Assembly: GCF_000422345.1 (NCBI RefSeq)
Contig: NZ_AULP01000003.1
Span: 186,001 to 250,000 of the forward strand
From: Neomelitea salexigens DSM 19753
GTDB lineage: Bacteria > Pseudomonadota > Gammaproteobacteria > Pseudomonadales > Spongiibacteraceae
Direction: 5' to 3'
DNA length: 64,000 nt
A program made the position numbers and the translations under genes. The notes under the pieces were generated by a model. The model ran no database searches. It saw only the letters and a program-made list of their open reading frames with translations, and was not told the DNA's origin. Below are positions 31,976 through 47,439 of this stretch, one piece after another. Position 1 is the stretch's first letter; each line of letters starts with the position of its first letter.

Positions 31976-32006
31976 GCTGATCGTTTTTGTCAGCATAGTG
32001 ATCAGC
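31976..32006. promoter_or_regulatory. Inverted repeat upstream of the DUF35 gene
   Basis: GCTGATC (31976-31982) and GATCAGC (32000-32006) are a perfect seven-base inverted repeat 17 bases apart, in the 209-base gap between the divergent DUF454 and DUF35 genes. It could be a regulator site serving both directions. The rest of this gap shows no clear sigma-70 promoter and no KstR-like palindrome that I recognise. Confidence 0.3.
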
Positions 32007-32135
32007 TGCGACATTGTCTGGTTTACGCCTCACAGAGATACTCCTTCGGCAAGCCAAATCTGGGCCTGCTATTGCACTACCGGCCACAAGGCCTATGTAG
32101 CTGCAGTGCAGGGTACATTACCAAGGAGAGACGAG

Positions 32136-33113
32136 ATGTCTTCATCGGCTGAAATTTTAAGTCAGGCCTTTACATTGGGGTATACCTATACCCGTTCAAC
32201 CGGCCCTATTGTGGGCCAGTTTCTCACAGCGTTGCGCGACCGGAAAATGGTCGGTATCAAAGGCAGCGACGGCAAGGTTCTTATGCCGCCGGTCGAATTT
32301 GATCCAGTGAGTGCGCAAGCGCTGAGCGAGTTTGTGGATGTTGCCGATTGCGGCGTTGTGCAAACGTGGAGTTGGGTCAGTGAGCCGCGTAAGGCGCACC
32401 CCAGCGACAAACCCTTTGCCTGGGCGTTGATTAAGCTCGATGGCGCTGATACGCCCATGCTTCATTGGGTGGATGCCGGTGATGCGGCGCAGATGTCTAC
32501 GGGTATGCGTGTAAAAGCTCGCTGGGCAGAGAAAACCCAGGGCTTAATCTCCGATATCAATGGCTTTGTCCCCGAGGCGACAACGCTGAGTGAAGACTAC
32601 CAAACAAATGAGGCAGAAGAGCCTATCACGGGTATCGACTCTCCCAGCTACCTGACCTACAACTTCACTGCAGGTGGCGCGACTGCACGTTATCTGGCTG
32701 AGCTCAAGAAAGGTAAGCTGGTAGGGCAGCGCTGTCCCTCCTGTGAAAACGTGTATATTCCTCCACGCGGTAGCTGTGCTGCCTGTGGTGTGGCGACAAC
32801 CGACGAAGTTGAATTAACCAATAAGGCTACCGTCGAATCGTTCACTATCGTGTATATCCCCATTCCCAACAACCCGATCAAGCCGCCCTACGTGATTGCA
32901 AATCTGGTGCTCGACGGCGCCAATATCAGCTTCCTGCACCTGCTTAGTGAGTGTAAGAACGAAGATGTGCGTATTGGTATGCGGGTTGAAGCCGTGTGGA
33001 AGCCCGAAGAAGAGTGGGGCTATGCCATGGAAAATATCCAGTACTTCAAGCCCATCGACGAGCCCGATGTTCCGGTGGAAGAAATTGGCAAATTGAAAAA
33101 AGGGGGCCGTTAA
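32136..33113 (+). CDS. Two-domain DUF35 zinc-ribbon/OB-fold protein (Rv3521-like)
   Basis: DUF35 proteins partner thiolase-fold enzymes and bind acyl-CoA. This 325-residue protein contains two copies: an N-terminal one (about 15-150) whose zinc-ribbon cysteines are missing (GSDGKVLMPPVEFD), and a C-terminal one (about 175-310) with an intact ribbon (CPSC, 11 residues, CAAC) and OB fold. ATG 32136 has an excellent AAGGAGAG site; the open frame runs 68 codons further upstream without support. Two thiolase-fold genes follow with spacings of 1 and -1 base, so a three-subunit complex is likely. In Mycobacterium tuberculosis the same order is Rv3521-ltp4-ltp3 in the cholesterol regulon (from memory). 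Confidence 0.85.
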   Translation: MSSSAEILSQAFTLGYTYTRSTGPIVGQFLTALRDRKMVGIKGSDGKVLMPPVEFDPVSAQALSEFVDVADCGVVQTWSWVSEPRKAHPSDKPFAWALIKLDGADTPMLHWVDAGDAAQMSTGMRVKARWAEKTQGLISDINGFVPEATTLSEDYQTNEAEEPITGIDSPSYLTYNFTAGGATARYLAELKKGKLVGQRCPSCENVYIPPRGSCAACGVATTDEVELTNKATVESFTIVYIPIPNNPIKPPYVIANLVLDGANISFLHLLSECKNEDVRIGMRVEAVWKPEEEWGYAMENIQYFKPIDEPDVPVEEIGKLKKGGR

Positions 33114-33114
33114 G

Positions 33115-34173
33115 ATGCGCGATGTAGCTATTGTAGCCTTTGCCCAGTCTGATTGTGTACGCGATGCCGGCGCGCGCAACGAAGTTGAGCTGATCATGCC
33201 GGTCTTGCAGGAAGTCTACAAGCAGACGGGTATTAACAGTGCTCAGGATGTTGACTTCACTTGCTCTGGTAGTTGCGACTACCAGCAGGGCGCAGCCTTC
33301 GCATTTGTGGCGGGTGTTGACGCGCTGGGTGCCGTGCCACCCATTAAGGAGTCTCACGTTGAGATGGACGCCGCGTGGGCGCTCTATGAGTCTTGGCTAA
33401 AAATTCAAATGGGCCAGGCCGAGTCGGCGCTGATTTACGGCTTTGGTAAGTCGTCGCCAGGCGAATTGCCGATCGTACTCTCTCAACAGCTCGACCCCTA
33501 TTACTTGGCGCCGCTTTGGGTGGACACCATTGCCTTTGCTGCCATGCAGGCGCGGGTGATGCTGGAGCAGGGTTTGATTACTGAAGCCGAGATGGCTGAG
33601 GTCGTTGCGCGCTCACGCCAAAACGCGAGCAACAATCCCCACGCTCAGCTTAAGGGTGATGTCAGTGTTGATGAGCTGCTCGCCGAGCCCGAATATGAAT
33701 CTCCACTGCGTCGTCACGATTGCTGCCCAATCTCTGATGGTGCCTGTGCAATGATTATCTGCACGGTCGAGAAGGCTAAAGAATGGGGTAAGCCCTATGC
33801 TGTGATTAAGGGGATTGATCACCGCATCGAGACCCACCACATCGGCTCGCGCGATCTAACGCAATCAATCTCTACCAAACAAGCGGCTGAGGCGGCTGGC
33901 GTCGCGCAAGGGCCGGTGGATATTGCCGAGTTGTATGCGCCGTTCAGCCACCAGGAAATCATCCTGCGCCGGGCGCTGAATTTATCCGATGACACCAAGG
34001 TAAACCCGTCGGGCGGCGTGTTGGCGGGCAATGTGATGATGGCCTCTGGCCTGTCGCGCATCGGTGAAGTGGCCATGCGATTAATCAACGGTGAAGGCAA
34101 GCGCGGCGTGGCACACGCAACGTCGGGGCCGTGTCTGCAACAAAACCTGGTAACTGTACTGGAGGCCCAATAA
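33115..34173 (+). CDS. Thiolase-fold lipid-transfer protein, Ltp4-like
   Basis: The 352-residue product has the thiolase fold. It resembles mycobacterial Ltp4 in stretches such as AVPPIKESHVEMDAAWALYE, YGFGKSSPGELP, SPLRRHDCCPISDGACAM and HATSGPCLQQNLV. The usual CNxxxGS nucleophile-cysteine stretch is absent, so classical thiolysis is doubtful. By analogy with the Ltp2-DUF35 steroid side-chain aldolase, a retro-aldol role is possible. It sits between the DUF35 gene and the Ltp3-like gene, with overlaps on both sides. Family membership is sure; substrate is inference. Confidence 0.85.
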   Translation: MRDVAIVAFAQSDCVRDAGARNEVELIMPVLQEVYKQTGINSAQDVDFTCSGSCDYQQGAAFAFVAGVDALGAVPPIKESHVEMDAAWALYESWLKIQMGQAESALIYGFGKSSPGELPIVLSQQLDPYYLAPLWVDTIAFAAMQARVMLEQGLITEAEMAEVVARSRQNASNNPHAQLKGDVSVDELLAEPEYESPLRRHDCCPISDGACAMIICTVEKAKEWGKPYAVIKGIDHRIETHHIGSRDLTQSISTKQAAEAAGVAQGPVDIAELYAPFSHQEIILRRALNLSDDTKVNPSGGVLAGNVMMASGLSRIGEVAMRLINGEGKRGVAHATSGPCLQQNLVTVLEAQ

Positions 34174-35336
34174 TGGCTCAATTAGCTGCTGTGGTCGGCG
34201 TCGGTCAGACCAAATACAAAACAAAGCGCGGCGACGTATCGATCGCGGGCTTGGTTCGCGAAGCGGCGCAGAATGCGCTCAATGATGCCCAGCTAACCTG
34301 GGATGACATCGATGCTGTGATCCTCGGCAAGGCGCCGGACATGTTCGAGGGCGTGATCATGCCCGAGCTGTATCTCACTGATGCACTGGGTTGTAACGGC
34401 AAGCCAATGCTGCGCGTGCACACCGCCGGCTCGGTCGGGGGCTCCACGGCTATCGTGGCGGCATCCTATGTGCAGAGCGGCGTGTTCAAACGCATTCTCA
34501 CGGTGTCCTTTGAGAAGCAATCCGAGTCCAACGCCATGTGGGCGTTGTCCAATCCACAACCGTTTTCGCCACACTTGAATGCGGGTGCTGGCGGTTATTT
34601 TGCGCCGATCATTCGCGAGTATATGCGTCGCTCCAATGCCCCCTATGATGCGGGGATTAAAGTCGCGGTGAAAGATCGCCTGCACGGTGCCAAAAACCCG
34701 CTGGCACACCTGCAGCTGCCAGAAATTACAATGAAAGAGGTCGAAGACAGCCCCATGCTGTGGGAGCCACTGCGCTTTCTTGAGGCCTGCCCGTCGTCTG
34801 ATGGCGCTTGCGCGATGGTTATTGCCAACGAAGATCTCGCTGAGCAGTCACCGGGTAAGCCCGCGTGGATTCGCGGCGCGGCAATGCGCTCCGAGCCAAC
34901 TATGTACGCGGGTCGTGAGCAGGTTAACCCGCAAGCGGGCCGCGATTGTGCGAAGGATGTGTACAAGCAAGCGGGCATCGATAACCCTCGCAAGGACCTG
35001 GATTGCGCCGAAGTCTACGTGCCGTTTTCTTGGTATGAGCCCATGTGGCTGGAGAACCTCGGTTTCGCCGAAGAAGGTAAGGGTTGGGAGCTCACCATGA
35101 GTGGTGCCACTTCCCTGCTGGAAGGCGGCGATATTCCCTGGAACTGCTCCGGCGGTGTTCTGTCGTCGAACCCGATTGGTGCCTCGGGCATGATCCGCTT
35201 TGCCGAAGCTGCGCAGCAGGTTCGCGGTGAAGCGGGAGACCATCAGGTGGACGGTGCCAAGACGGCATTGGGTCACGCCTACGGTGGCGGCGCCCAGTTC
35301 TACTCAATGTGGGTAGTGAGCAGCGAAAAGCATTAA
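34173..35336 (+). CDS. Thiolase-fold lipid-transfer protein, Ltp3-like
   Basis: This 387-residue thiolase-fold protein begins LAAVVGVGQTKYKTKRGDVS and carries VHTAGSVGGSTAIVAASYVQ, EKQSESNAMWALS and ALGHAYGGGAQFYSMWVV, which strongly recall M. tuberculosis Ltp3 (Rv3523). In place of the thiolase nucleophile cysteine it has HTAGS. ATG 34173 overlaps the preceding stop (TAATG) and has CTGGAGG upstream. With the DUF35 and Ltp4-like proteins it probably forms one acyl-CoA-processing complex. Likely substrate class is a steroid or isoprenoid side-chain CoA ester; not shown by sequence. Confidence 0.87.
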   Translation: MAQLAAVVGVGQTKYKTKRGDVSIAGLVREAAQNALNDAQLTWDDIDAVILGKAPDMFEGVIMPELYLTDALGCNGKPMLRVHTAGSVGGSTAIVAASYVQSGVFKRILTVSFEKQSESNAMWALSNPQPFSPHLNAGAGGYFAPIIREYMRRSNAPYDAGIKVAVKDRLHGAKNPLAHLQLPEITMKEVEDSPMLWEPLRFLEACPSSDGACAMVIANEDLAEQSPGKPAWIRGAAMRSEPTMYAGREQVNPQAGRDCAKDVYKQAGIDNPRKDLDCAEVYVPFSWYEPMWLENLGFAEEGKGWELTMSGATSLLEGGDIPWNCSGGVLSSNPIGASGMIRFAEAAQQVRGEAGDHQVDGAKTALGHAYGGGAQFYSMWVVSSEKH

Positions 35337-35348
35337 CAAATGGTCATC

Positions 35349-35385
35349 AGCCATCCCCCTCAACTCGTCCCTTGGGAGGATGGCT
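35349..35385 (+). promoter_or_regulatory. Inverted repeat after the Ltp3-like gene
   Basis: AGCCATCC (35349-35356) and GGATGGCT (35378-35385) are perfect complements around a 21-base loop, starting 12 bases after the stop codon. No T-run follows, so it is not a standard terminator. It might protect the 3' end of the DUF35-ltp4-ltp3 message or separate it from the next gene. Confidence 0.35.
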
Positions 35386-35498
35386 GGGTGAGAATGGCCT
35401 TGTTACTGTGTTGGGCTAAACGCCGTTCTGGCCTGCCCGGCGATACGGTTGCGATACATCGCTGCGAGTGATCGCAGACATAACAATTAAACAAATTG

Positions 35499-35519
35499 AC
35501 GCCGCCATCGAGGCGGCGT
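35499..35519 (+). promoter_or_regulatory. GC-rich hairpin in the leader of the FadD19-like gene
   Basis: ACGCCGCC and GGCGGCGT form a perfect eight-pair stem around ATCGA, ending 20 bases before ATG 35540. Just upstream lies CAATT-AAACA-AATTG (35484-35498), a small operator-like repeat. The hairpin lacks a T-run and is close enough to the start codon to affect translation or to bound the message. The 203-base gap shows no other feature that I can support. Confidence 0.45.
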
Positions 35520-35539
35520 TGATCTAACAGGGACCCACT

Positions 35540-37171
35540 ATGAGTATGCATTTTAACCTTGCGGATTTGTTTGAAGCCGTTGCCGATAAAGTACCCAGCC
35601 GTGAAGCGCTGGTGTGTGGCAGTAGTCGTGCGACTTACGCCGAGCTGGATGCTGGCGCCAACCGTATGGCCCACTACCTGAGCAGTCAGGGGGTGAAGGC
35701 CGGCGACCACGTTGGCTTGTACATGTACAACTGCAACGAATATCTGGAAGCGATGCTGGCTTGCTTCAAAATTCGCGCGGTGCCTATCAATGTTAACTAC
35801 CGCTATGTGAAAGATGAGCTGCTTTACATCTTTGATAATGCAGACATGGTTGCCTGTGTACATCACCGCGAGTTTACACCGCATATTGCTGAAGTCCGTT
35901 CGGCGGCTAAGAAACTTAAAGTATTTGTGTCGGTGGATGACGGTAGCGATGCAGACATCGCCAGCATTGGGTCTATCGACTACGCGCAGGCCTGTGAAGG
36001 ACAGAGCGCCGAGCGCGATTTCGCTGAGCGTGCCGATGACGACTACTTTGTGCTCTACACAGGTGGTACTACGGGCATGCCTAAGGGCGTTATGTGGCCG
36101 CATAAAAATGTATTTTTTGCGGCGATGGGCGGCGGCGGTCACTTTTCGCCACTCGGCCCCTGTGAGAAGCCAGAAGATATTACCGAGCGTGTCGGCGAGC
36201 ACCCGCTGACCGGTATCGCCCTGGCGCCGTTGATGCATGGCGCATCGTGGTGGTATGCCTGTATCCAGCTGCTTGCGGGCAACAAGCTGGTGCTTAATCA
36301 CAATCGCTCCTTCGACGGTGCCGAGGTATGGCAGATCGTTGCGGACGAAAAAGTGAACGCTGTGCAGATCGTTGGCGATGCCATGGCTATCCCCCTGCTG
36401 GACGCACTCGATGCGAACCCCGACCGCTGGGATTTGTCGGCGGTATTTAACGTTGGTTCAGGCGGTGCGATCTTCTCTGAAGCCAAGCAAGAAGCCTTCA
36501 AGAAGCATTTCCCCAATGTCTTTGTTACCAACGCGTTTGGTTCGTCTGAAGGCGGCCAAATGGGCATGGATAACGGCAGCAAGAAAACGGCATCGGGACT
36601 TGGCAACGTTAGTCGTACCGACTACATGGACGTGATTATCGACGAGCCAGACCAACCGCGTCGTCACGCTGAGCTCGGCGAAACCGGAATCTTTGCTCGC
36701 GCGGGTTACATCCCAATGGGCTACTACAATGACCCTGAAAAAACCGCCAAGACCTTCGTTGAGGTGGACGGTAAAACCTGGTTGTTGACGGGTGATGCCG
36801 CCAAGCTGGAAGAAGATGGTTCAATTACTGTCTTCGGTCGCGGCTCAAACTGCATTAACAGCGGTGGTGAGAAAATCTTCCCGGAAGAAGTTGAAGACGC
36901 GCTTAAGGCCCACGACGGTGTTTTCGATGCACTGGTTATTGGTGTTCCCGACGAGCGTTGGGGTAGCCGCGTGAGTGCGGTTATTCAGGCGCGCGAGGGT
37001 GTCGACCTCGACCTTAAGAATGTTCAAGAGCATTGCCGCAAACACGTGGCGGGTTACAAGGTGCCACGCGAGGTACATATCATTGCAGAAATTCCTCGCG
37101 CCCCCAGCGGCAAGCCCGACTATAAAACAGCAAAAGCCTTTGCGCTGAGTGGTGAGGGACAGGTTTCCTGA
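35540..37171 (+). CDS. FadD19-like acyl-CoA synthetase
   Basis: This 543-residue ANL-family enzyme activates a carboxylic acid as acyl-CoA through an acyl-adenylate. The AMP-binding P-loop YTGGTTGMPKG is at 173-183, FGSSEGGQMG near 334, the hinge region INSGGEKIFPEEVE near 450 and the adenylation lysine in SGKPDYK near the C-terminus. Many stretches agree with M. tuberculosis FadD19, the synthetase for C24-branched sterol side chains, including DGSDAD and VFDALVIGVPDERWG. It begins a second transcription block after a 203-base gap. Family certain, steroid substrate probable by context. Confidence 0.88.
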   Translation: MSMHFNLADLFEAVADKVPSREALVCGSSRATYAELDAGANRMAHYLSSQGVKAGDHVGLYMYNCNEYLEAMLACFKIRAVPINVNYRYVKDELLYIFDNADMVACVHHREFTPHIAEVRSAAKKLKVFVSVDDGSDADIASIGSIDYAQACEGQSAERDFAERADDDYFVLYTGGTTGMPKGVMWPHKNVFFAAMGGGGHFSPLGPCEKPEDITERVGEHPLTGIALAPLMHGASWWYACIQLLAGNKLVLNHNRSFDGAEVWQIVADEKVNAVQIVGDAMAIPLLDALDANPDRWDLSAVFNVGSGGAIFSEAKQEAFKKHFPNVFVTNAFGSSEGGQMGMDNGSKKTASGLGNVSRTDYMDVIIDEPDQPRRHAELGETGIFARAGYIPMGYYNDPEKTAKTFVEVDGKTWLLTGDAAKLEEDGSITVFGRGSNCINSGGEKIFPEEVEDALKAHDGVFDALVIGVPDERWGSRVSAVIQAREGVDLDLKNVQEHCRKHVAGYKVPREVHIIAEIPRAPSGKPDYKTAKAFALSGEGQVS

Positions 37172-37275
37172 CCCTTGGGCCGGGGTGGCGATGCTACTCC
37201 GGCACACTCTGCCCGCACTCATGGCCGCTGCTTTTCACTTATTCTCATAACAATGAATTGCGAATGGAGCCAATC

Positions 37276-38097
37276 ATGCCTACCGAACTGCCTATCAGTA
37301 CCGAAAACTGTATCGTCGAGAAAGACGGCCACGTACTGATTGTTACCCTGAACCGCCCGGAAGCAAAAAATGCGTTCAGCCCTGAAATGCTGTTGGGGCT
37401 CTATAAAGCGTGGCGCTTGCTGGATGAAGACGACGATCTTCGCTGCGCTATTCTTACAGCCAACGGCGATACCTTTTGTGCGGGAATGGACCTCAAGGCC
37501 GGAGCGGATGGCCAACAGCGCAGCACGGAAGAGTTTATGGAATTGATGGCCACAGTGCCCAATATCCATTGGCAGGCACTGCTGCGTGACAACCGCCCCT
37601 GCAAGCCATTGATCCTTGCTGTGGAAGGTTATGCGCTAGCGGGTGGAACGGAAATTCTTCAGGGTACTGACATTCGCGTTGCGGCTGAGGATGCCATCTT
37701 TGGTGTGACGGAAGTGGCGCGTGGCCTATATCCGATGTCCGGCTCAACCGTACGTCTGCGCAAACAAATTCCCTACTGCATTGCCGCTGAAATTCTGCTG
37801 CTTGGCGAGCACGTTAGTGCACAGCAGGCGCTGGAATTTGGCTTGATTAACCGCATCGTACCCAAGGGGGAGACCTTGAACGAAGCGAAGAAAATAGCCG
37901 AAAAAATCTGTGCAAATGGCCCGCTGGCGGTGAAAGCAGTGACGCGTTCATTGCGTGAGCACACCGAGCACCTGGCAGAAGACGACGCTATGTTGAAGTC
38001 CGATGAGCTGGCAGGCCCGGTGTTTGCCTCCAAGGATGCCAAAGAAGGCATGCGCGCCTTCAAAGAAAAACGTCCCGCCGAATTCACCGGCGAATAG
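37276..38097 (+). CDS. EchA19-like enoyl-CoA hydratase
   Basis: This crotonase hydrates 2-enoyl-CoA. Both catalytic glutamates are in place 20 residues apart, Glu126 in AGGTEILQG and Glu146 in FGVTEVARG, and the CoA-binding CAGMDLKA stretch is at 68-75. ALAGGTEILQGTDIRVA, GLYPMSGSTVRL and NGPLAVKAV match M. tuberculosis EchA19, the C24-enoyl steroid-CoA hydratase, as I remember it. ATG 37276 is chosen since GGAG lies six bases upstream; ATG 37264 would add four residues. Length 273. Confidence 0.87.
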   Translation: MPTELPISTENCIVEKDGHVLIVTLNRPEAKNAFSPEMLLGLYKAWRLLDEDDDLRCAILTANGDTFCAGMDLKAGADGQQRSTEEFMELMATVPNIHWQALLRDNRPCKPLILAVEGYALAGGTEILQGTDIRVAAEDAIFGVTEVARGLYPMSGSTVRLRKQIPYCIAAEILLLGEHVSAQQALEFGLINRIVPKGETLNEAKKIAEKICANGPLAVKAVTRSLREHTEHLAEDDAMLKSDELAGPVFASKDAKEGMRAFKEKRPAEFTGE

Positions 38098-38185
38098 CCC
38101 GACGCGGCGGTGGACGATGTTTCCGCCGCTGCCTCGCGACCCACTTCTCAATACCAATAATTACCCCACTAAGAAGGATGAGGCT

Positions 38186-39325
38186 ATGTCTGGGCCACTA
38201 AACGGCGTGAGAGTTATCGAGATGGCGGGCATTGGCCCCGGGCCCTATGCCTGTATGCTGTTATCTGATCTGGGCGCTGAGGTGATCCGAATTGACCGCA
38301 GCGGCGCACTGGGCCAGCCGGGTGATATCAGTACCCGTGGCCGGCGCTCGATAGCCCTAAACCTCAAATCAGAAGACGGACTCGCGATTGCCCGTCAGCT
38401 GATCGACAGTGCCGACATGCTCGTTGAAGGCTTTCGACCCGGTGTAATGGAAAAGCTAGGCCTCGGCCCCGAGGTGTGTTGTCAGTCAAATGAGAGGCTG
38501 ATATTCGGCCGCATGACGGGTTGGGGGCAAGACGGGCCGCTGGCTAAAACCGCCGGCCACGATATTAATTACATCGCCTTGAGTGGCATGTTGGCAAGTA
38601 TGGGCGATGCTGACCGCCCACCACCGGTGCCCCTGAACGTGGCGGGCGATCTGGGTGGCGGCTCGCTGTTCCTGGTGATGGGTATGTTGGCGGCGCTGCA
38701 TGAGCGGAGTCAATCAGGGAGAGGGCAGGTTATCGATGCGGCAATTTGCGACGGCGCGGCGTCGTTAATGACTACCCTTCATGGCCTCAGAGCGATCGAC
38801 TTCTGGGATGCCCAGCGAGAGCACAACATGCTTGATGGCGGCGCGCCGTTTTACCGCAATTATGAGTGTAAAGACGGGCGCTATATTTCCTTCGGCGCAA
38901 TCGAGCCACAATTTTATGCGTTGTTGCTGGACAAACTGGATATTGATTTTGGTGGCACAGACTACAGCGTGCAGTTGAACAAAGCCGATTGGCCGCGCCA
39001 GCGTGAGCAAATCGCTGCGCGCGTTAAGGAAAAGACCCTAGCGCAATGGTGCACTATCTTCGACGGCACTGATGCTTGCGTAGCGCCGGTTGTGCCGTTG
39101 GATGAGGCGATCGACCATCCACATAACGCCGTGCGTGGGAATCTTGTTGAGCGCGATGGCGTGATTCAAACTGGCGTCGCGCCGAGGTTGTCCCGCACTC
39201 CAGGTGAAATACAAAGTGGCCCGGCGGTGAGTGGCGCCCAAAGCCGAGAGCTACTGCAGGAGTTGGGTTTCGATACGGAAAAGATCGAGTCGCTAATAGC
39301 GGGTAATGCGGTGAGTACAGACTGA
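38186..39325 (+). CDS. Alpha-methylacyl-CoA racemase (CaiB/BaiF family)
   Basis: AMACR interconverts R and S 2-methylacyl-CoA epimers so that beta-oxidation can proceed past a methyl branch. The active-site residues of mycobacterial MCR are at corresponding positions: His125 in AGHDINYIALSG, Asp155 in VAGDLGGGS and Glu240 in FGAIEPQFY. GGAPFYRNYECKDGRY is also typical. ATG 38186 gives 379 residues, with AAGGA upstream; the open frame extends back into the 3' end of the hydratase gene without support. It fits degradation of sterol (C25) or isoprenoid chains. Confidence 0.88.
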   Translation: MSGPLNGVRVIEMAGIGPGPYACMLLSDLGAEVIRIDRSGALGQPGDISTRGRRSIALNLKSEDGLAIARQLIDSADMLVEGFRPGVMEKLGLGPEVCCQSNERLIFGRMTGWGQDGPLAKTAGHDINYIALSGMLASMGDADRPPPVPLNVAGDLGGGSLFLVMGMLAALHERSQSGRGQVIDAAICDGAASLMTTLHGLRAIDFWDAQREHNMLDGGAPFYRNYECKDGRYISFGAIEPQFYALLLDKLDIDFGGTDYSVQLNKADWPRQREQIAARVKEKTLAQWCTIFDGTDACVAPVVPLDEAIDHPHNAVRGNLVERDGVIQTGVAPRLSRTPGEIQSGPAVSGAQSRELLQELGFDTEKIESLIAGNAVSTD

Positions 39326-39337
39326 TAGGGAGAGAGA

Positions 39338-40009
39338 ATGAATCACGCACAAGCTTTTTACGATGTGCTAAAGCGCAGGCGGTCGGTTCGCGCATTTCGC
39401 TCGCAGCCGATAGCCGAGGCGCGCTTACAGAATATTTTTCGCGCTGCACAGCAAGCGCCGTCGAACTGTAATACGCAACCGTGGTTGTGCGCGGTGGTCA
39501 GTGGCGAGCGATTGGAAGTGCTCAGAACCGCGATTCCGCAGGCATTTACCGCCGGGCAGTGGACCATGGACTTTCCCTACGATGGTCAATACCAGGGGGT
39601 GTATAAGGAACGCCAATACCAGGCAGCGGCTGACCTATACAGCGCGATGGGGATTGCTCGCGAGGATAAAGCCGGGCGCAATGAACAATTCATGCAAAAC
39701 TTTACGTTTTTTGGTGCGCCCCACGTGGCATTTATTTTCCTGCCCGAGTCCTTTGGTTTACGCGAAGCAGCCGATTGCGGCATGTATGCCCAAAGCCTGA
39801 TGCTGGCCCTGGCAGCAGAAGGCCTGGCCAGTTGTCCGCAAACGGCGCTGAGCTTTAATGCCGACCTAGTGCGAGAGGTACTGGGAATAGACGCAGAAAA
39901 TAAACTGCTATTTGGTATCTCCTTCGGCGAGGAAGACACCGATGCCGCAGTGAATAATTGCCGAACCCAGCGCGACACCTCAGACAATTGCCTGCGGTTC
40001 TTTTCCTGA
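39338..40009 (+). CDS. Nitroreductase family FMN oxidoreductase
   Basis: The 223-residue protein has the nitroreductase FMN-binding start RRRSVRAFRSQPI, the QAPSNCNTQPW loop near 38-48 and the late AAEGLASCPQ stretch. These enzymes use NAD(P)H to reduce quinones, nitro groups or enones. The substrate is not predictable; in this operon an enone or enoyl intermediate of the acyl-CoA route is possible. It starts 12 bases after the racemase and ends 10 before the next crotonase. Confidence 0.85.
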   Translation: MNHAQAFYDVLKRRRSVRAFRSQPIAEARLQNIFRAAQQAPSNCNTQPWLCAVVSGERLEVLRTAIPQAFTAGQWTMDFPYDGQYQGVYKERQYQAAADLYSAMGIAREDKAGRNEQFMQNFTFFGAPHVAFIFLPESFGLREAADCGMYAQSLMLALAAEGLASCPQTALSFNADLVREVLGIDAENKLLFGISFGEEDTDAAVNNCRTQRDTSDNCLRFFS

Positions 40010-40019
40010 ATAGAGCGAG

Positions 40020-40796
40020 ATGAATATGAGCGATACAGTACTTCAGAAACTAGATGAGCACGGTGTGCTGCTGCTGACTTTGAATCGACCAGAGAAAAAA
40101 AATGCGTTCAGCAATGAGCAATGGCTGGCCTTTGGCGAGGCGCTGGAAGCCGCCGATGAAAATCCGGCAGTTGCCTGTGTGGTTGTGACCGGAGCGGGCC
40201 GTGACTTTTCCAGCGGCGTAGATCTAAACGATTTTTCAGAGGCGGATGGTGAGCACCCTTTCGAGCGCTGCGCGCGACGTCTTGTCGACTTTAACAAGCC
40301 TATTGTGAGCGCGGCCAAGGGTGTGGCGATAGGTGGCGGTGCGACCTTACTGCTGCATACCGATGTTGTGTATGTGGGCGAATCCCTGCGTTTGCGTTTT
40401 CCTTTTACGGCCTTGGGTTTGGTGCCGGAGTGGGGCAGTAGCTATCAGCTTCAGGCCGTCATCGGTGCCCGTAAAGCAGCAGAACTGATGTATACCTCTG
40501 AGTGGCTGGGGGCTGAGCGCGCAGTAGAATTGGGTATTGCCACGGCGGCTTACAGCGATGACGAACTGCTGGAGCGGGCTATGGAGAAGGCAAGAGAAAT
40601 TGCGAAGTGGCCGGTCAGTTCACTGCGTGAGACGAAAGATTTGATGCGTCGTGTGCATCGAGCAGCCATTCATGCCGCCATTGATGCTGAACAAGCAGGC
40701 ATGGCGAAACTGGCGGGTAAGCCCGAAAATATTGAAGCCGTCGTAGCGATTATGGAAAAGCGCGCACCGGATTTTTCCCAGTTTCGCAAGGCATAA
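40020..40796 (+). CDS. Crotonase-family protein with delta-enoyl-CoA isomerase-like active site
   Basis: This 258-residue crotonase keeps the CoA-binding and oxyanion-hole regions (FSSGVDLNDFS, AKGVAIGGGATLL) but lacks both hydratase glutamates: the first position is Thr in GGGATLL, the second lies in RFPFTAL. Instead it has Glu137 in LGLVPEWGSS, the layout of delta3,delta2-enoyl-CoA isomerases (ECI2/PECI type, PEGCSS in human). It probably shifts a double bond during oxidation of an unsaturated chain rather than adding water. ATG 40020; ATG 40026 is an alternative. Confidence 0.83.
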   Translation: MNMSDTVLQKLDEHGVLLLTLNRPEKKNAFSNEQWLAFGEALEAADENPAVACVVVTGAGRDFSSGVDLNDFSEADGEHPFERCARRLVDFNKPIVSAAKGVAIGGGATLLLHTDVVYVGESLRLRFPFTALGLVPEWGSSYQLQAVIGARKAAELMYTSEWLGAERAVELGIATAAYSDDELLERAMEKAREIAKWPVSSLRETKDLMRRVHRAAIHAAIDAEQAGMAKLAGKPENIEAVVAIMEKRAPDFSQFRKA

Positions 40797-40847
40797 CTCT
40801 CTTAGATATTAGGGTTGCCAGTATTTGATTGGGCCCAGGGAGTGAAT

Positions 40848-41342
40848 ATGAATCAGCCCTATATTGGTTATCGCGGAGCGGTGAAGCCCGAATGGATCGA
40901 TGTAAACGGCCATATGAATGCGACGCACTTTGGCTTGGTGATCTACGAGGCGCACGCCGCTCACAGTGAGTGGCTGGGTTTTAATGAGGAGTATGTCGAC
41001 CGGGCCCGATGTGGCAAAGCCGTGCTGGAAAGCCATATGCGCTATGAGCGTGAGGCCGGGTTGGGCGACCAGCTGGAGGTGCGGTGTTGGCTGCTGGCGG
41101 TCGATAATAAGCGTCTGCATTTTTTCCACGAACTGTATAACTGCAGCCGGCAATGCCGCAGCGCCACATCTGAGCAGGTGGACATTCATATCGACTTACA
41201 CGCGCGCCGCTCAGCAGACATGCCCGAATCGCTGCAGCGCTTCTTGCGTGAGCAAGTACGTGAAAATTTGGCGCTGCCGCTGCCGCTAAATATTGGTAGT
41301 CAATTGCGGCCGCCGCTAAATACCTGGTTGGATGGCGAATGA
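40848..41342 (+). CDS. Hot-dog fold acyl-CoA thioesterase
   Basis: The 164-residue product shows the 4-hydroxybenzoyl-CoA thioesterase-like pattern PEWIDVNGHMNATHFGLVIYEA near the N-terminus and a central RYEREAGLGDQLEVRCWLL stretch, then loses similarity I can recognise. Such enzymes release free acids from CoA esters, possibly freeing CoA when intermediates stall. ATG 40848 has CAGGGAG upstream. The stop overlaps the next gene by four bases (ATGA), tying it to the foldase-membrane protein pair. Confidence 0.78.
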   Translation: MNQPYIGYRGAVKPEWIDVNGHMNATHFGLVIYEAHAAHSEWLGFNEEYVDRARCGKAVLESHMRYEREAGLGDQLEVRCWLLAVDNKRLHFFHELYNCSRQCRSATSEQVDIHIDLHARRSADMPESLQRFLREQVRENLALPLPLNIGSQLRPPLNTWLDGE

Positions 41343-43287: not shown

Positions 43288-43291
43288 ACAC

Positions 43292-43651
43292 TCAGCTACT
43301 GAAGGGCGCCATATCAAAGTAGTCCCGCCACTGCTGAATTAACCCGTCGCGCAATAAAAATACCCCCATAACAGGTAGATCAATGGCCTTGCCTCGGTCT
43401 GTGCGCTCGTTCATGACAACACCATTTGCTTCATCACAAAGCTGGTGGTGCACAATAAATTCAATGTCTTCCAGACTGTTGAGAAAGCCCTCAATAAACT
43501 CGCGTATGGCGGCTTTGCCAACGTGTGGCGGTCCCATAGGGATGTTGCAGTATTCGGCGTTCTCGTGAAAGAAACCCATGATCTGTTCGAGATTTCGCTG
43601 GTTCCACGCCTGCATAAACTGGTCGATTATTTGCTGATTCTTGTCACTCAT
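43292..43651 (-). CDS. Limonene-1,2-epoxide hydrolase-family enzyme
   Basis: The 119-residue protein has the small cone-shaped SnoaL/LEH fold with all five catalytic residues of limonene epoxide hydrolase: Tyr34 and Asn36 in AEYCNIPMG, Arg83 and Asp85 in NERTDRG, Asp110 in WRDYFD. It should hydrate an epoxide directly, without a covalent intermediate. ATG at 43651 is chosen (MSDKNQQ); upstream codons are non-conserved. It is divergent from the P450 gene with 96 bases between, which suggests a P450-made epoxide as substrate. Confidence 0.82.
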   Translation of the reverse strand: MSDKNQQIIDQFMQAWNQRNLEQIMGFFHENAEYCNIPMGPPHVGKAAIREFIEGFLNSLEDIEFIVHHQLCDEANGVVMNERTDRGKAIDLPVMGVFLLRDGLIQQWRDYFDMAPFSS

Positions 43652-43682
43652 TGGTTGAGTCTCGCCGTTATTATTTTGAGGT

Positions 43683-43714
43683 TTACAGTGTAAGCTCGCT
43701 CGGGTAGTTTTACC
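43683..43714. promoter_or_regulatory. Two small dyads in the LEH/P450 divergent region
   Basis: TTACAGTGTAA (43683-43693) and GGTAGTTTTACC (43703-43714) lie in the 96-base gap between divergent genes. Each has perfect inverted arms of four or five bases. They could be operator half-sites for a TetR regulator such as the one at 45259. Arms are short, so chance is possible. Confidence 0.3.
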
Positions 43715-43747
43715 AGTACCTGCAATGAAGCTTGCTGAGGCTCTGCT

Positions 43748-45202
43748 ATGAATCGTCCGTTTTACCACAGTCGCCGTCGTTTACTTTCTCACCTCATTGA
43801 ACGGGGAATGCGTTTGTCGGCGCGACGCTATACCCGTGGTACACAGCGAGTTGAAAGCCAGGACGCCGAGACCGCCCCGGGAAATATCAGCGTTGGGGAG
43901 CCGAGGCGACCGGGAGATTTTCGGCCACTGGAAGACGCCTATTTTCAAAACCCCTATGCCTTTTACAAAATGCTGCGCGACGACTACCCGGTTTACCAGT
44001 TGCCCAATGGCATTTACTGCCTATCCCGCTATCAAGATATTGTTGAGGTGAGCCGGAACACCGATGTTTTTTCGTCTACTCATCAGGGCGTGATTGCAGG
44101 GCTTAAGCCTGGACACAGTGTCGAGCGCGAGGCGGCGAAGTTGCGCGCCCTTGAAATGATGGGAGTGATACCCAGTGATGTGTTGGCGCTGTCTGATCCG
44201 CCGGCCCATACGGCCGAGCGCAAGGTCGGGCATCGCGGTTTAAATGCGCGGGTGGTCAAGGCCATGGAAGACGAGGTGACGGCGCTTTGTCGGGAAATGA
44301 TGGATGCGGTCATCGACAGGGGCGAACTTGAGTTTATGCGCGACTTCGCCTGGCGTTTGCCCATGCGACTGATCATTCGCATGCTGGGCTTTCCCGAAGC
44401 AGACTATGAAAAAATAAAAGACTGGTGTGTACACGGTATTGCCACACAAAGCGGTATCGCTCAGGGGGCGGCACTAGCCCGCAGTCAGGCGGAGCTGGTG
44501 GTGTTTTATCGCTATTGCTGGCGGCAATTTATACTGGCCAAGCGACGGCCACGCGATGACCTTAGCGCGGTGTTTGTGCAGGCGGCCACGGGCGATGATG
44601 CGGTGATGGCTGAGCACACCGCGGTTTCCGCAATTATGCAGTTGCTGATCGCCGGGTCGGACTCTTCTGCGACCAGTATGGGAAATGCGCTGAAATTGTT
44701 AATTGAAAACCCCGACATCCAGGCGCAGCTGCGCGAGGATTTGGATGGCTTGCTGCCGGTTTTTATCGAAGAGGTATTTCGCCTTGAAGCGGCCTTTCAG
44801 GGGCATTTTCGTTGGACCAAGAGCGCGACGCAATTGCACGGTGTAAACTTGCCCGCCGACAGCAGGGTGTTTCTAATGTGGGCGGCGGGGAATCGCGACG
44901 AGCGTGTATTCACGGCGCCCGATGACATTCGTCTTGACCGCAGCAACGGAAAAAAACACCTGACATTTGGCCACGGTATACACGCCTGCATTGGTCGCGA
45001 GCTGGCGCGCACGGAAATTCGTATCGTATTGCGTGAGTTTCTGCTGCGCACCGAAAATCTATCCTTGGCGGGACCTTCCCCCTATGTGGCGTCGATGTTT
45101 GCACGCACATTGCAGTGCTTGCCGATCCGCTTTAGCGCAAAGCGCGGGTTCGCTGACGGTGGTGGAGGAGCTGAGCGTCGTGAACATGCCGGAGCGGCAT
45201 AG
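43748..45202 (+). CDS. Cytochrome P450
   Basis: This 484-residue bacterial P450 has the heme motif FGHGIHACIGRELARTE with Cys414 as the iron ligand, an ExxR pair in EEVFRLEA, and the I-helix AGSDSS, where Ser replaces the usual Thr after the acid. An N-terminal basic extension of about 45 residues precedes the P450 fold, and a Gly/Arg/Glu-rich tail ends the protein. No ferredoxin gene is adjacent; the Rieske protein at 50621 is a distant candidate donor. The CYP subfamily is not assigned; sterol or terpenoid oxidation is inferred from context. Confidence 0.9.
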   Translation: MNRPFYHSRRRLLSHLIERGMRLSARRYTRGTQRVESQDAETAPGNISVGEPRRPGDFRPLEDAYFQNPYAFYKMLRDDYPVYQLPNGIYCLSRYQDIVEVSRNTDVFSSTHQGVIAGLKPGHSVEREAAKLRALEMMGVIPSDVLALSDPPAHTAERKVGHRGLNARVVKAMEDEVTALCREMMDAVIDRGELEFMRDFAWRLPMRLIIRMLGFPEADYEKIKDWCVHGIATQSGIAQGAALARSQAELVVFYRYCWRQFILAKRRPRDDLSAVFVQAATGDDAVMAEHTAVSAIMQLLIAGSDSSATSMGNALKLLIENPDIQAQLREDLDGLLPVFIEEVFRLEAAFQGHFRWTKSATQLHGVNLPADSRVFLMWAAGNRDERVFTAPDDIRLDRSNGKKHLTFGHGIHACIGRELARTEIRIVLREFLLRTENLSLAGPSPYVASMFARTLQCLPIRFSAKRGFADGGGGAERREHAGAA

Positions 45203-45258
45203 TTGTGTCGGCAAAAAAAATAGTCGTGCCGGCTAAAAATAAGATAAGTCGAGGTGAT

Positions 45259-45870
45259 ATGAGTGGCAGTTTGAACCGCCAGCGTTTTGTGGATGCTGCC
45301 CTGGATGTGATTGCCGATGTTGGCGTTGAGAAATTATCGATGCGCCGCGTTGCCAGTCAGCTGGGGGTTTCCGCAATGGCGATGTACAAGCATTTTGCGA
45401 ATAAAGATGAGTTGCTGGGTGCAGCCTTTGAGGAATTTATCGCTCGCGCGGAGGTGCTGCCCGATGACCAATTGCCCTGGGATGAATGGCTGACTGTGAG
45501 CGCGCGGGGCATGTACCAGGCGCTGTGTAGCGAAATGTCTTGGGTACCCTGGCTGGGAAAACTGCGCCTTGGCGGCAACGCGCTCCGGGTGACAGAACGC
45601 TTTGCCGCCAAGCTGGCGGAAAGTGGATTGGCGACGGATGCCTCGGTGAGGGTCTATATGGCGACTATTCAGCTCGTGGTCGGCGCCGTGTGTATGCGGG
45701 CCTCTCTGCATGCCAGCCATTGGCAACAGGGCGAGGGTGCGGCGGCGACGCCTGAGGCACTGCCGCCGGAGATCTATACAGGCTTGGCAAATGCGGTTGC
45801 CCAAGAGCCCATCGACGTATCCTTACCCCTGTTGATTGAGGGGGTTCGCCACCAATTATTATTGGCTTAG
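45259..45870 (+). CDS. TetR family regulator (P450-linked)
   Basis: The 203-residue protein has an N-terminal TetR helix-turn-helix (LSMRRVASQLGVSAMAMYKHFANKDELL, about 24-51, shown here in part as SAMAMYKHFANKDELL) and a C-terminal ligand domain. ATG 45259 has a GAGGTG site; an in-frame GTG at 45205 would add 18 residues without a ribosome site. It follows the P450 gene by 56 bases on the same strand. Its end overlaps the convergent dehydrogenase gene by 12 bases. It may control this cluster, in the manner of KstR, but specific likeness to KstR is not established. Confidence 0.85.
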   Translation: MSGSLNRQRFVDAALDVIADVGVEKLSMRRVASQLGVSAMAMYKHFANKDELLGAAFEEFIARAEVLPDDQLPWDEWLTVSARGMYQALCSEMSWVPWLGKLRLGGNALRVTERFAAKLAESGLATDASVRVYMATIQLVVGAVCMRASLHASHWQQGEGAAATPEALPPEIYTGLANAVAQEPIDVSLPLLIEGVRHQLLLA

Positions 45871-47349
45871 TGCCGCCTGCCTGCCCGCGAGTCGACCGAA
45901 GAATGTCGCATCGCCCACCGACATCCCGCTGGCGTATCCCTTGGCTGTGCGCGGCAGGCCAGCGGTTGCACGGCCTGCGGCGAAGAGGCCAGGGATCGCG
46001 TGGTTGTCGGCATCGAGTACTTCGCCATTACAGCGTGTTTTTAAGCCGCCAAGCGTAAAGATTAGCGGGCCATTGGTGCCCGGCATAATGATTGCGCGCA
46101 TTTCACTGGCGGAATACTCCAGCAGGGCGTAGGGCGGTTTATTGAGCGGCTTGAGCCATTCGGAAGTTTTGTGGAAGAGCGGGTCGCGCCCTTCACTGGC
46201 ATGCCGGTTAAAATAGTCGACAGTATCTTCCAGTGCGCCCGGGGGGAAGGGCGCTTCTGATGCCAGCTCAGCGATGCTGTTACCGCTGGCGATCAGCGGT
46301 GCACGCTCCAGGTAATGTGAGGCCTCGTAGTCCTCTTCCTGCACAAGTAAATAGAATTTTTGCTCAGGCTGCTGGCAGGAGTAATGCGCTAACTGGGCAA
46401 GGTAGGCATCTTCATTGATGTAACGCTGGCCACGCTGGTTGAGCAGCAGGCCGTAGGTAAGCTTAGCGGGTGGGTAGAGTGGGAACGACATGAAGGCCTG
46501 ATCCATATTGATGGCTTGGCCACCCGCCGCGAGCCCCAGCTGGATACCGTCACCCATATCATAGCTATTGCCGTAGGGCACCGCGTATTGATGAATCTCT
46601 GGCAGGTATTGGCGGGTCATCGCCTCATTCATAACAAAGCCACCGGTGGTCAACACCACCCCGCGCACAGCGCGGATCGCGATTTCGCGGTTATTGTGTT
46701 TTGCGATAACGCCACAGATTCGCCCAGTATTGTCCGCCAGCAGTGCCAGTGCCCGGCAGTCGTTAACAACGTCCACTCCCGCTTCGTCAACGCGCTGCAT
46801 AATTGCATCCATAAAAATTTTGCCGCCTTCGTCACCTTCCTTTGAGGGGACGTGGCCACGCGGCACTGGCTCAGCGATGGTGTTGAAGGGATAAGATTTT
46901 TCATTGCCGGTAAACAGCAGCGATTCGTCGCTGAGTGGCACCACGGTGCGCTCATGCATTACCGCACGCTTATAGCTAACACCCAGTGACTCTACCCAGT
47001 CGAAGTGAGCGGCCGCGCCCTCGGCGTAACAGCGAATTTTTTCGCTGTCGCCGTAGGGGCCCAGGGCTTCGTGTAGGTAGGCCAGTAGGTTTTCAGTACT
47101 GTCGTGTATGCCCAGGTCTTTCTGCAGCGCGGTGCCGCCACTGCCGCCGAGATACATCTCGCAGCTGGATAACGCGGTGGCACCGCCACCGGCGCTGGCG
47201 CGCTCAATAATACAGACTTTCGCGCCGGCCGCGGCAGCCTCTAGGGCCGCGGCAGCGCCAGCGCCGCCGTAGCCGCAAATTAGCACATCGGTGGCGATAT
47301 CAAAGTGAGTAACAGATTCAATCGGGCGTATGCGGGCGTTCGCAGCCAT
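45859..47349 (-). CDS. FAD-dependent dehydrogenase, 3-ketosteroid delta4-(5alpha)-dehydrogenase-like
   Basis: The 496-residue flavoprotein belongs to the fumarate reductase/KSTD superfamily. The FAD dinucleotide motif is DVLICGYGGAGAAAALEAA (21-39). The catalytic set of Rhodococcus delta4-(5alpha)-KSTD (Tyr319, Tyr466, Ser468, from memory) has likely counterparts in Tyr316 (INEDAY), Tyr472 and Ser474 (GYASGMSVGD). Such enzymes dehydrogenate 3-oxo-5alpha-steroids to 4-enes. The family is sure; the reaction is inferred. Its start is divergent from the second TetR gene, with an 18-bp palindrome in between. Confidence 0.82.
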   Translation of the reverse strand: MAANARIRPIESVTHFDIATDVLICGYGGAGAAAALEAAAAGAKVCIIERASAGGGATALSSCEMYLGGSGGTALQKDLGIHDSTENLLAYLHEALGPYGDSEKIRCYAEGAAAHFDWVESLGVSYKRAVMHERTVVPLSDESLLFTGNEKSYPFNTIAEPVPRGHVPSKEGDEGGKIFMDAIMQRVDEAGVDVVNDCRALALLADNTGRICGVIAKHNNREIAIRAVRGVVLTTGGFVMNEAMTRQYLPEIHQYAVPYGNSYDMGDGIQLGLAAGGQAINMDQAFMSFPLYPPAKLTYGLLLNQRGQRYINEDAYLAQLAHYSCQQPEQKFYLLVQEEDYEASHYLERAPLIASGNSIAELASEAPFPPGALEDTVDYFNRHASEGRDPLFHKTSEWLKPLNKPPYALLEYSASEMRAIIMPGTNGPLIFTLGGLKTRCNGEVLDADNHAIPGLFAAGRATAGLPRTAKGYASGMSVGDATFFGRLAGRQAALSQ

Positions 47350-47411: not shown

Positions 47412-47439
47412 ATTAGTGTCGAGTCAAAAGAGCGCCCCC

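Follow-up and report, generated by a model that had tools for sequence, protein, structure and literature searches.

The window, meaning the whole stretch of 64,000 nucleotides that was analysed, belongs to a Spongiibacter-like gammaproteobacterium and has an even GC content along its length. It contains a gene cluster with the following features.

31977..32042, plus strand: conserved 5' element and putative promoter before the DUF35 gene (inverted repeat CTGATC-N17-GATCAG, then TTGTCT-N17-GATACT)
32136..33113, plus strand: tandem DUF35 (OB-fold) protein, Rv3521-type (OB_ChsH2_C, E 1.3e-26)
33115..34173, plus strand: Ltp4-family thiolase-like subunit (NF005924, 499 bits, cut-off 419)
34173..35336, plus strand: Ltp3-family thiolase-like aldol-lyase subunit (NF006180, 667 bits, cut-off 514)
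35337..35539, plus strand: 203-nt ltp3-fadD19 gap with two RNA hairpins (z-scores -2.28 and -3.65)
35540..37171, plus strand: FadD19-clade sterol-CoA ligase (NF005863, 690 bits, cut-off 543)
37258..38097, plus strand: EchA19-like enoyl-CoA hydratase (NF005864, 344 bits, cut-off 316)
38186..39325, plus strand: alpha-methylacyl-CoA racemase, MCR type (solved chains including M. tuberculosis MCR 1x74, E about 1e-108)
39338..40009, plus strand: FMN nitroreductase-family protein (family match; tracks the module)
40020..40796, plus strand: ECI-like crotonase (Glu137 retained, Phe129 at the hydratase Glu144 position)
40815..41342, plus strand: 4HBT-type thioesterase, a local addition (next to the module at a single locus of the 84)
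43748..45202, plus strand: cytochrome P450, not CYP125/142 (best solved chain CYP144, E 5e-60; 24% to CYP125)
45205..45870, plus strand: TetR-family regulator
45859..47349, minus strand: 3-ketosteroid delta4-(5alpha)-dehydrogenase, KSTD (NF005510, 735 bits, cut-off 481)
47416..48045, plus strand: TetR-family regulator, divergent from the KSTD gene (family match)

The initial annotation had grouped DUF35, Ltp4, Ltp3, FadD19-like and EchA19-like proteins with a racemase, a P450, TetR regulators and a KSTD-like protein, and profile and solved-chain matches placed all of them where it had put them. The nitroreductase, second crotonase, PpiC-type PPIase, HupE and SnoaL/LEH protein it had listed were also present, the last on the minus strand. 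Best solved chains supported its calls of an MCR-type racemase and a delta4-(5alpha)-KSTD. The parallel it drew with M. tuberculosis Rv3515c-Rv3523 was borne out; the genes there are Rv3515c fadD19, Rv3516 echA19, Rv3521, Rv3522 ltp4 and Rv3523 ltp3 (PMC6429209, excerpt).

PF01796 matched the DUF35 protein at two distinct places (47.2 and 52 bits, cut-off 27.1), and the N-terminal copy lacks the zinc-ribbon cysteines. The Ltp2-partner DUF35 chain 6ok1_B was among the solved-chain matches of this protein (E 2e-7). The DUF35 gene is separated from ltp4 by 1 nt, and ltp3 follows directly with an overlap of one base. The module was compared with 84 other loci (29 Gammaproteobacteria, 3 Betaproteobacteria, 9 Myxococcota, 38 Actinomycetota and 5 other). 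The DUF35 end lay at most 117 nt from Ltp4 in all 84, and the Ltp3 start at most 57 nt from the Ltp4 end in 82, the contigs of the other two stopping 1-2 nt past the Ltp4 match. This adjacency exceeds chance. The two DUF35 domains are fused here and split elsewhere: one ORF was counted in 33-43 of the loci, two in 32-38 and an unclear arrangement in 9-13, the two scripts differing for high-GC loci (33/38/13 versus 43/32/9). Within the 29 gammaproteobacterial loci both scripts found 7 fused, and one script gave 21 split and 1 unclear. A cruder count of 59 fused and 25 split was discarded for these two later scripts, and row L114, with its N-terminus out of frame, was left out of the DUF35 alignment. 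Ltp3/Ltp4 have been described as a heteromeric C24-C25 aldol-lyase (PMC6678751, excerpt), and one paper saw the Rv3521 family as a possible DNA-binding protein (PMC9782250). We infer that the tandem DUF35 protein would be the scaffold of an Ltp3-Ltp4 aldolase.

The hairpin-bearing gap after ltp3 is possibly a transcript boundary. In the ligase tree a branch (SH-aLRT 100) separates the window FadD19 and 49 module-linked ligases from 12 others, a partly circular result because group membership had been defined through 42% identity with the window. The EchA19-like protein retains both catalytic Glu positions (E152, E178). It scored 334 bits against the NCBI EchA19 equivalog NF051848, below the cut-off of 400, and is called EchA19-like only. 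The racemase start codon was a choice made in this analysis; its gene was linked with the module in 10 of the 84 loci, all Gammaproteobacteria. Delta3,delta2-enoyl-CoA isomerases have their decisive Glu at the Glu137 position and hydratases at Glu144. E137 together with F129 was found in the window crotonase, in 16/16 module-linked homologues and in 12/12 further matches.

The predicted KSTD was nearer to 4AT0, the delta4-(5alpha)-3-ketosteroid dehydrogenase of R. jostii RHA1 (E 5e-106; runner-up urocanate reductase, 6e-42), than to KstD. Its Tyr, Tyr and Ser align at the catalytic positions, which we take to be Tyr319, Tyr466 and Ser468 of 4AT0. A paralogue (47%) lies on contig C1. The genome had 13 PF00067 matches, of which one 451-aa frame accounts for two. 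The window P450 was rejected as first candidate for a sterol C26-hydroxylase, and other candidates lie elsewhere in the genome. The P450 at C11:34947-36209 is 55-57% identical to the one that two Halieaceae-type loci (L061 and L070) have close to their triad. The P450 at C12:71402-72601 has 36% identity to CYP125.

Both blocks of the 5' element were conserved in five of five aligned loci (the window, S. marinus and three Zhongshania). The element had a single perfect copy in 580,312 scanned bases of its own genome, and any further copy in those bases had at least two mismatches. We infer a regulatory role for it. The cholesterol-regulon likeness proposed initially gained no support: a shared regulon was not found, and the TetR protein at 45205..45870 scored only 23 bits against the KstR model NF033703 (cut-off 280). 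When 77 + 38 intergenic regions were searched for dyads, every motif was confined to three sites at most, and an operator shared by the window and the ring clusters was rejected because this signal was lacking. The two may still be under common control.

The ring genes lie outside the window, as had been noted, and were found elsewhere in the genome. The initial annotation had proposed looking there for kshA and hsaC, and had counted a lack of ring-cleavage genes against its reading; seven KshA-family proteins, all above cut-off, and HsaC-like proteins were present. Genes adjacent to kshA are HsaD/E/F/G-like and HsaC/HsaA-like, and there is a second kshA-hsaC-hsaA set. The KshA, HsaA/C/D/E/F/G-like and KstD-like genes are on the same contig as the window and IpdABC-like genes on another. 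The latter products have 50, 38 and 48% identity to proteins of a Tsukamurella cholesterol plasmid, which we take to be IpdA, IpdB and IpdC. Homologues of HsaA, HsaC, HsaD and KstD scored below the curated cut-offs, which are actinobacterium-based. KshA, HsaC and most ring genes, the set by which a 9,10-seco degrader is recognised, are in the genome. A ChsE4-ChsE5-like pair is encoded on contig C1, and FadA5-like proteins also occur.

In M. smegmatis FadD19 is required for C24-branched sterols including sitosterol and not for cholesterol, and echA19 is non-essential; the same paper gives Ltp3/Ltp4 as essential for branched and not straight side chains (PMC6273163, excerpt). This reported essentiality in Actinobacteria is the ground for reading the locus as a plant- or algal-sterol side-chain module. 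Positions 32136-40796 are probably a gammaproteobacterial version of the C24-branch-removing module with which 24-alkyl sterols of plants, fungi and algae are broken down. The steroid context proposed earlier was supported, as the same genome has homologues for ring cleavage, whereas the label cholesterol-like was too wide because FadD19 is not required for cholesterol in M. smegmatis. A function on straight-chain cholesterol, or on sterols generally with the C24 branch incidental, is unlikely for the module. BD1-7-clade (Spongiibacteraceae) and Halieaceae sponge isolates do grow on cholesterol (PMC5790920, excerpt), a review draws FadD19 as cholesterol-26-oyl-CoA ligase (PMC6678751, excerpt), and the ChsE4/E5-like and FadA5-like proteins would fit. 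However, FadD19 and echA19 are dispensable for cholesterol in M. smegmatis, and an unbranched chain needs no C24 retro-aldol enzyme.

Co-occurrence was compared between 31 Ltp4-bearing relatives and 84 other relatives, with p-values that overstate independence because the genomes are related. HsaC-like proteins (E < 1e-40) were present in 29/31 versus 15/84 (Fisher p 5e-14) and the nitroreductase (E <= 1e-70) in 29/31 versus 9/84, both E-value lines having been chosen after viewing the lists. The ECI-like crotonase was present in 31/31 versus 4/84 (p 5e-24), and within the 44 HsaC-bearing genomes in 29/29 versus 3/15 (p 2e-8). It is therefore probably a pathway member and a new candidate partner. 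The gene is not universal: at 48% or more it was absent from 9/9 Actinomycetota genomes, and it was also missing from one of four Myxococcota and from a Sterolibacterium MAG, where the match had 37% identity and one internal stop. Among the proteobacterial additions named initially, this crotonase and the nitroreductase thus track the module. The P450, PpiC, HupE, thioesterase and LEH genes were seen next to it only in S. marinus. The last four were rejected as pathway parts, since at 40% or more they accompany the module in 1/84 loci; flanks were compared to at most 10 kb, these window genes lie 7.7-10 kb from ltp4, and longer spacing would escape the count.

KshA was present in eight of nine named triad-bearing genomes. 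The triad is also carried by Sterolibacterium MAGs. A triad-bearing Sterolibacterium MAG had no KshA match, as expected if the triad acts on the side chain rather than in the ring step that depends on an oxygenase. S. denitrificans reportedly grows on sitosterol and stigmasterol (PMC11061730, excerpt). Two of the 31 Ltp4-bearing relatives (G050 and G070) lacked an HsaC match. Branched fatty acyl-CoAs are further substrates of the MCR-type racemase, hydratase and ligase families. A module for other branched isoprenoids (pristane, citronellol or similar), with a coincidental steroid context, is nevertheless very unlikely given the HsaC-like and KshA co-occurrence, the delta4-(5alpha)-KSTD in the cluster and the actinobacterial homologues that adjoin a steroid thiolase and CYP125 gene on one plasmid.

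An unrooted tree of Ltp4 and Ltp3 placed the 51 Actinomycetota/Myxococcota rows on one side of a branch (SH-aLRT 99) and all proteobacterial rows on the other, with identities of 49-60% across the split. The contig of row L090 stops after ltp4, and its Ltp3 entry, a very long-branched paralogue, was disregarded. Mycobacteria or another actinobacterium could be imagined as a recent source of the cluster, as the set was first described in Actinobacteria and plasmid-collection Ltp4 matches above 45% identity were all actinobacterial among the 30 matches listed. The tree split, the cross-split identities and the even GC make this highly improbable. A recent mycobacterial origin is not supported by these sequences; the unrooted tree itself gives no direction. 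Least probable is a bile-acid side-chain cluster of Sal-Shy type: Sal, Ltp2 and Ltp3/4 are related, with DUF35 partners in both kinds of system (PMC11321319, excerpt), but the MaoC-DUF35 fusion is absent here and Ltp3 and Ltp4 exceed their own family cut-offs. The genome has only one other DUF35 protein, a 144-aa single-domain chain whose gene neighbours that of a PRK06059-family aldolase on contig C1, and this is a better candidate for a Sal- or Ltp2-like step.

For removal of the C24 branch, the substrate, step order and complex are proposed from the presence, family, gene order, co-occurrence and catalytic residues established here. A C26 hydroxylase, probably another P450 of the genome, would give the 26-acid, and FadD19 would convert it to the CoA thioester. 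The racemase would set the C25 configuration and a dehydrogenase, perhaps the ChsE4-ChsE5-like pair, would introduce the alpha,beta-double bond. The ECI-like crotonase may shift the double bond between C24(28) and C24(25), a delta3-to-delta2 shift in C24(28)-unsaturated sterols. EchA19 would then hydrate to a tertiary 24-alcohol, and Ltp3 with Ltp4, held by the two DUF35 domains, would cleave it by retro-aldol reaction. The shortened steroid would enter the 9,10-seco ring pathway, the delta4-(5alpha)-KSTD feeding in 5alpha-saturated (stanol) rings. The published actinobacterial scheme has C28 carboxylation (PMC6678751, excerpt), which counts against this explanation. Deletion of ltp3 or ltp4 in M. 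neoaurum did not stop conversion of phytosterol to 4-HBC, and only atf1 deletion did (PMC10398937, excerpt); the two genes are therefore not required for every phytosterol outcome. A separate route for algal sterols with a C24(28) double bond, such as fucosterol and 24-methylenecholesterol, is tentatively suggested for marine Gammaproteobacteria and Myxococcota. There the ECI-type isomerase would bring the C24(28) bond into conjugation with the thioester, and the Ltp3-Ltp4-two-DUF35 aldolase would cut the branch without the carboxylation drawn for Actinobacteria.

Similar gene sets occur in several other bacterial groups. The window shares with Actinobacteria (M. tuberculosis Rv3515c-Rv3523; mutants of R. 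rhodochrous and M. smegmatis) the same five families and the order DUF35-ltp4-ltp3, with ligase and hydratase nearby. In the window the FadD19 and EchA19 genes come next on the same strand, in a single gene run; the racemase, nitroreductase and ECI-like crotonase are added, and CYP125/142 and KstR are missing. The Ltp2-ChsH2(DUF35) aldolase (6OK1) and Sal-Shy likewise combine a thiolase-like retro-aldolase with DUF35 partners, and in Ltp2 two DUF35 chains bridge the central dimer (PMC11321319, excerpt). The module differs from both: its thiolase-like subunits are of two kinds, its one DUF35 chain joins two distinct domains, and it has no MaoC hydratase. The anaerobic phytosterol pathway of Sterolibacterium denitrificans is linked to it by the triad in Sterolibacterium MAGs; there molybdenum enzymes hydroxylate C26 without O2 (PMC11061730, excerpt), whereas the ring genes here are O2-dependent.

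A 2016 survey reported a lack of evidence for Proteobacteria degrading cholesterol via the 9,10-seco pathway (PMC4810484). A 2018 study isolated cholesterol-growing gammaproteobacteria and left their genes for later work (PMC5790920, excerpt). If the C24-branch reading is true, the attack of abundant marine bacteria on 24-alkyl sterols, the dominant sterols of algae and plants, would be explained by a concrete gene set. The ECI-like isomerase would be a new candidate partner and the Rv3521 family would gain a proposed role as aldolase scaffold. Steroid degradation would then likely extend to the Myxococcota MAGs with the triad and KshA-family proteins.

The window corresponds to C3:186001-250000 in a genome of 3.44 Mb in 21 contigs. 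Spongiibacter marinus DSM 17750 (Gammaproteobacteria, Spongiibacteraceae) has an Ltp4 that shares 99% identity with the one encoded here. Housekeeping genes (ndk, rlmN, rodZ, ispG, hisS, bamB and those of der-type proteins) are located 5' of the cluster and GC content is uniform over the segment. From window position 32136 the gene order is:

From 32136: DUF35 protein, Ltp4, Ltp3
35337-35539: 203-nt gap between ltp3 and fadD19
Then: FadD19-like ligase, EchA19-like hydratase, alpha-methylacyl-CoA racemase, nitroreductase-family protein, ECI-like crotonase, thioesterase, PpiC-type PPIase, HupE
Then, minus strand: LEH/SnoaL protein
Then: P450, TetR regulator
Then, minus strand: delta4-(5alpha)-ketosteroid dehydrogenase (KSTD)
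Then: TetR regulator

The genes named in the initial annotation were confirmed, with Ltp4, Ltp3 and the ligase exceeding curated NCBIfam family cut-offs. The EchA19-like hydratase passed one subfamily cut-off and fell below the NCBI EchA19 equivalog cut-off. The racemase matched the M. tuberculosis MCR type among solved chains, and the KSTD-like flavoprotein was by far nearest, of all solved chains, to 4AT0, the KSTD of R. jostii RHA1; both calls are supported. What we take to be the three catalytic residues of 4AT0 align with Tyr, Tyr and Ser. The ltp3-fadD19 gap contains two stable RNA hairpins (z -2.28 and -3.65), perhaps marking a transcript boundary. An inverted repeat with a promoter-like element at 31977-32042 was kept in 5/5 aligned Spongiibacteraceae loci, and no second copy was found in the own-genome stretches scanned.

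Ring-cleavage homologues were found elsewhere in the genome, so the objection foreseen in the initial annotation, a genome lacking them, does not apply. Seven proteins exceeded the PF19298 (KshA) cut-off, three of them on contig C3, which also holds the window; among 14 control genomes only Corynebacterium glutamicum gave a match, under cut-off. HsaD-, HsaE-, HsaG-, HsaF-, KshA-, HsaC- and HsaA-like genes occupy C3:112.9-123.4 kb. HsaA, HsaC and HsaD homologues scored under NCBI curated cut-offs. A KstD-like protein at C3:38.2 kb scored 541 bits (cut-off 788). A second kshA-hsaC-hsaA-like set (C3:149148-152320) and a third KshA-family gene on this contig (C3:261320-262240) hint at several steroid substrates. 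A CofE-type F420-0:L-glutamate ligase (275 bits, curated cut-off 180.65) is encoded at L009:18500-19267 (C3:128500), in a gammaproteobacterium.

The DUF35-Ltp4-Ltp3 triad also occurs on plasmid 4 of Tsukamurella tyrosinosolvens (NZ_LR134446.1; loci L150, L052 and L149), together with kstR, CYP125, six MlaD (Mce-type) genes, a CoA-transferase pair and a steroid 3-ketoacyl-CoA thiolase. This is a cholesterol set largely on a plasmid. Between 603 and 632 kb of contig C1, four proteins are 50, 38, 48 and 42% identical to plasmid proteins which we take, by position, to be IpdA, IpdB, IpdC and EchA20, respectively. Thiolases there reach 42-45% identity to the plasmid's annotated steroid thiolase. 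An acyl-CoA dehydrogenase pair at C1:551.0-553.6 kb shows 33 and 49% identity to a plasmid pair that is presumably ChsE5 and ChsE4. Beside it are a PRK06059-family aldolase and the only DUF35 protein that the genome has besides the one in the window. The window KSTD has a paralogue (47% identity; C1:631432-632922) adjoining the IpdABC-like cluster. A TonB-dependent receptor (C1:545837-547768; NF053590, 631 bits, cut-off 645), encoded within a few kb of the ChsE4/E5-like genes, is a possible sterol uptake gene.

The Ltp4 alignment was scanned against 84,980 species genomes, giving at least 590 related stretches. The best 80 and four plasmid loci were taken. Ranking was by likeness to the window, so many actinobacterial loci, including M. 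tuberculosis, lie outside this sample; the M. tuberculosis gene order was that described in PMC6429209. DUF35 was immediately 5' of ltp4 in 84/84 loci of this sample and Ltp3 immediately 3' in 82, the contig ending there in the other two. With taxon labels as submitted, the 84 comprise 29 Gammaproteobacteria, 3 Betaproteobacteria (all Sterolibacterium MAGs), 9 Myxococcota, 38 Actinomycetota and 5 plasmid or unranked loci. Within the fetched stretches, a ligase at least 42% identical was present at 52 of the 84 and an EchA19-like protein at least 45% identical at 44. The triad and KshA-family proteins occur together in MAGs labelled Deltaproteobacteria and ranked Myxococcota (L086, L087, L092). 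The steroid degraders named in the relevant sections of two surveys are Actinobacteria and Proteobacteria only (PMC4810484, PMC5790920).

The initial annotation also described proteobacterial additions to the cluster. The nitroreductase and ECI-like crotonase do track Ltp4; for the PpiC, HupE and LEH proteins, as for the thioesterase and P450, S. marinus was the one locus of 84 (best 80 of at least 590 plus four plasmid) where they were found next to the module. These neighbour counts cover the fetched flanks, and the KSTD position lies outside them. The window P450 was displaced as first candidate for the C26-hydroxylase: CYP144 is its nearest solved chain, it is 24% identical to CYP125, and better candidates are on contigs C11 and C12.

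In an unrooted Ltp4+Ltp3 tree of 81 rows, one branch (SH-aLRT 99) separated 51 Actinomycetota and Myxococcota rows from every proteobacterial row. This split speaks against recent transfer from mycobacteria, which appears disfavoured, although an old transfer could run either way in an unrooted tree. The window ligase grouped with 49 module-linked ligases against 12 others (SH-aLRT 100), a grouping that is partly circular because groups were defined by identity to that ligase.

PF01796 matches the window DUF35 protein twice (47.2 and 52 bits, cut-off 27.1); zinc-ribbon cysteines are present in the C-terminal domain and missing from the N-terminal one. Among the best-80-plus-plasmid loci, the domains are fused in this way in 7/29 gammaproteobacterial loci and are two adjacent genes in most of the rest. 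In the Ltp2 structure a central Ltp2 dimer is bridged by two DUF35 chains (PMC11321319). Here the simplest arrangement by analogy would be a heterodimer of Ltp3 and Ltp4, with two unlike DUF35 domains as the bridge. DNA binding was suggested for an Rv3521 homologue (PMC9782250); the domain make-up speaks for a probable aldolase role instead.

Ltp3-Ltp4 has been reviewed as a heteromeric aldol-lyase at C24-C25, acting after C26 oxidation, FadD19 and C28 carboxylation (PMC6678751). M. smegmatis needs FadD19 for beta-sitosterol and not for cholesterol, and the same paper describes Ltp3 and Ltp4 as essential for branched side chains and dispensable for straight ones (PMC6273163). Removal of the C24 branch is supported, in a circular way, by Sterolibacterium, as the betaproteobacterium S. 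denitrificans uses the 24-alkyl sterols sitosterol and stigmasterol (PMC11061730) and Sterolibacterium MAGs bear the triad. The one such MAG tested gave no KshA match compared to 8/8 other triad-bearing genomes tested, as expected if the triad acts on the side chain. This reading is weakened by engineered M. neoaurum, which still formed 4-HBC from phytosterols after ltp3 and ltp4 deletions (PMC10398937).

A 2016 survey reported no evidence of 9,10-seco cholesterol catabolism in Proteobacteria (PMC4810484). A 2018 study described cholesterol-growing isolates of the BD1-7 clade, Halieaceae and Colwellia (PMC5790920); the module is present in a Zhongshania genome (L055) whose label, BC9_2A, is similar to the names given to isolates there. 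In the open-access papers searched, no description of the module in Gammaproteobacteria was found, and among the matching papers listed (12 of 13) none named an enoyl-CoA isomerase in the C24-branched sterol pathway. As the search covered open-access papers, this is weak evidence that the module in Gammaproteobacteria is new.

Association with Ltp4 was scored in 115 related genomes, own included, 31 of them with Ltp4 above cut-off. A crotonase homologue (E <= 1e-50) was present in 35: 31/31 Ltp4-bearing and 4/84 others (Fisher p 5e-24, a value too small because the genomes are related). These four assemblies (G033, G064, G078, G106) each have at least 350 contigs, and G106 holds an Ltp4 fragment. 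Among HsaC-like-bearing genomes only, the crotonase was in 29/29 with Ltp4 compared to 3/15 without. Its position is frequently away from the triad, as in G023 and G028, where the two are on separate contigs; the association is therefore not mere linkage. Crotonase and Ltp4 vary together in the four families with both states (f1, f8, f31, f40); f14 and f18 include genomes with crotonase and without full Ltp4. The nitroreductase (E <= 1e-70) was more weakly associated (29/31 compared to 9/84). In 18 named triad-bearing genomes, a crotonase at least 48% identical was found in 4/4 Gammaproteobacteria, 3/4 Myxococcota and 0/9 Actinomycetota; the Sterolibacterium MAG had none at that level.

The crotonase keeps Glu137 and has Phe129 at the hydratase Glu144 position, as do 16/16 module-linked homologues and 12/12 further matches. 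This is presumably the pattern of delta3,delta2-enoyl-CoA isomerases. In a sterol-26-oyl thioester, C24(28) is delta3 and C24(25) is delta2 by CoA numbering. Such positions suit an isomerase, and the ECI-like crotonase may act on C24(28)-unsaturated sterols or make a shift needed before cleavage.
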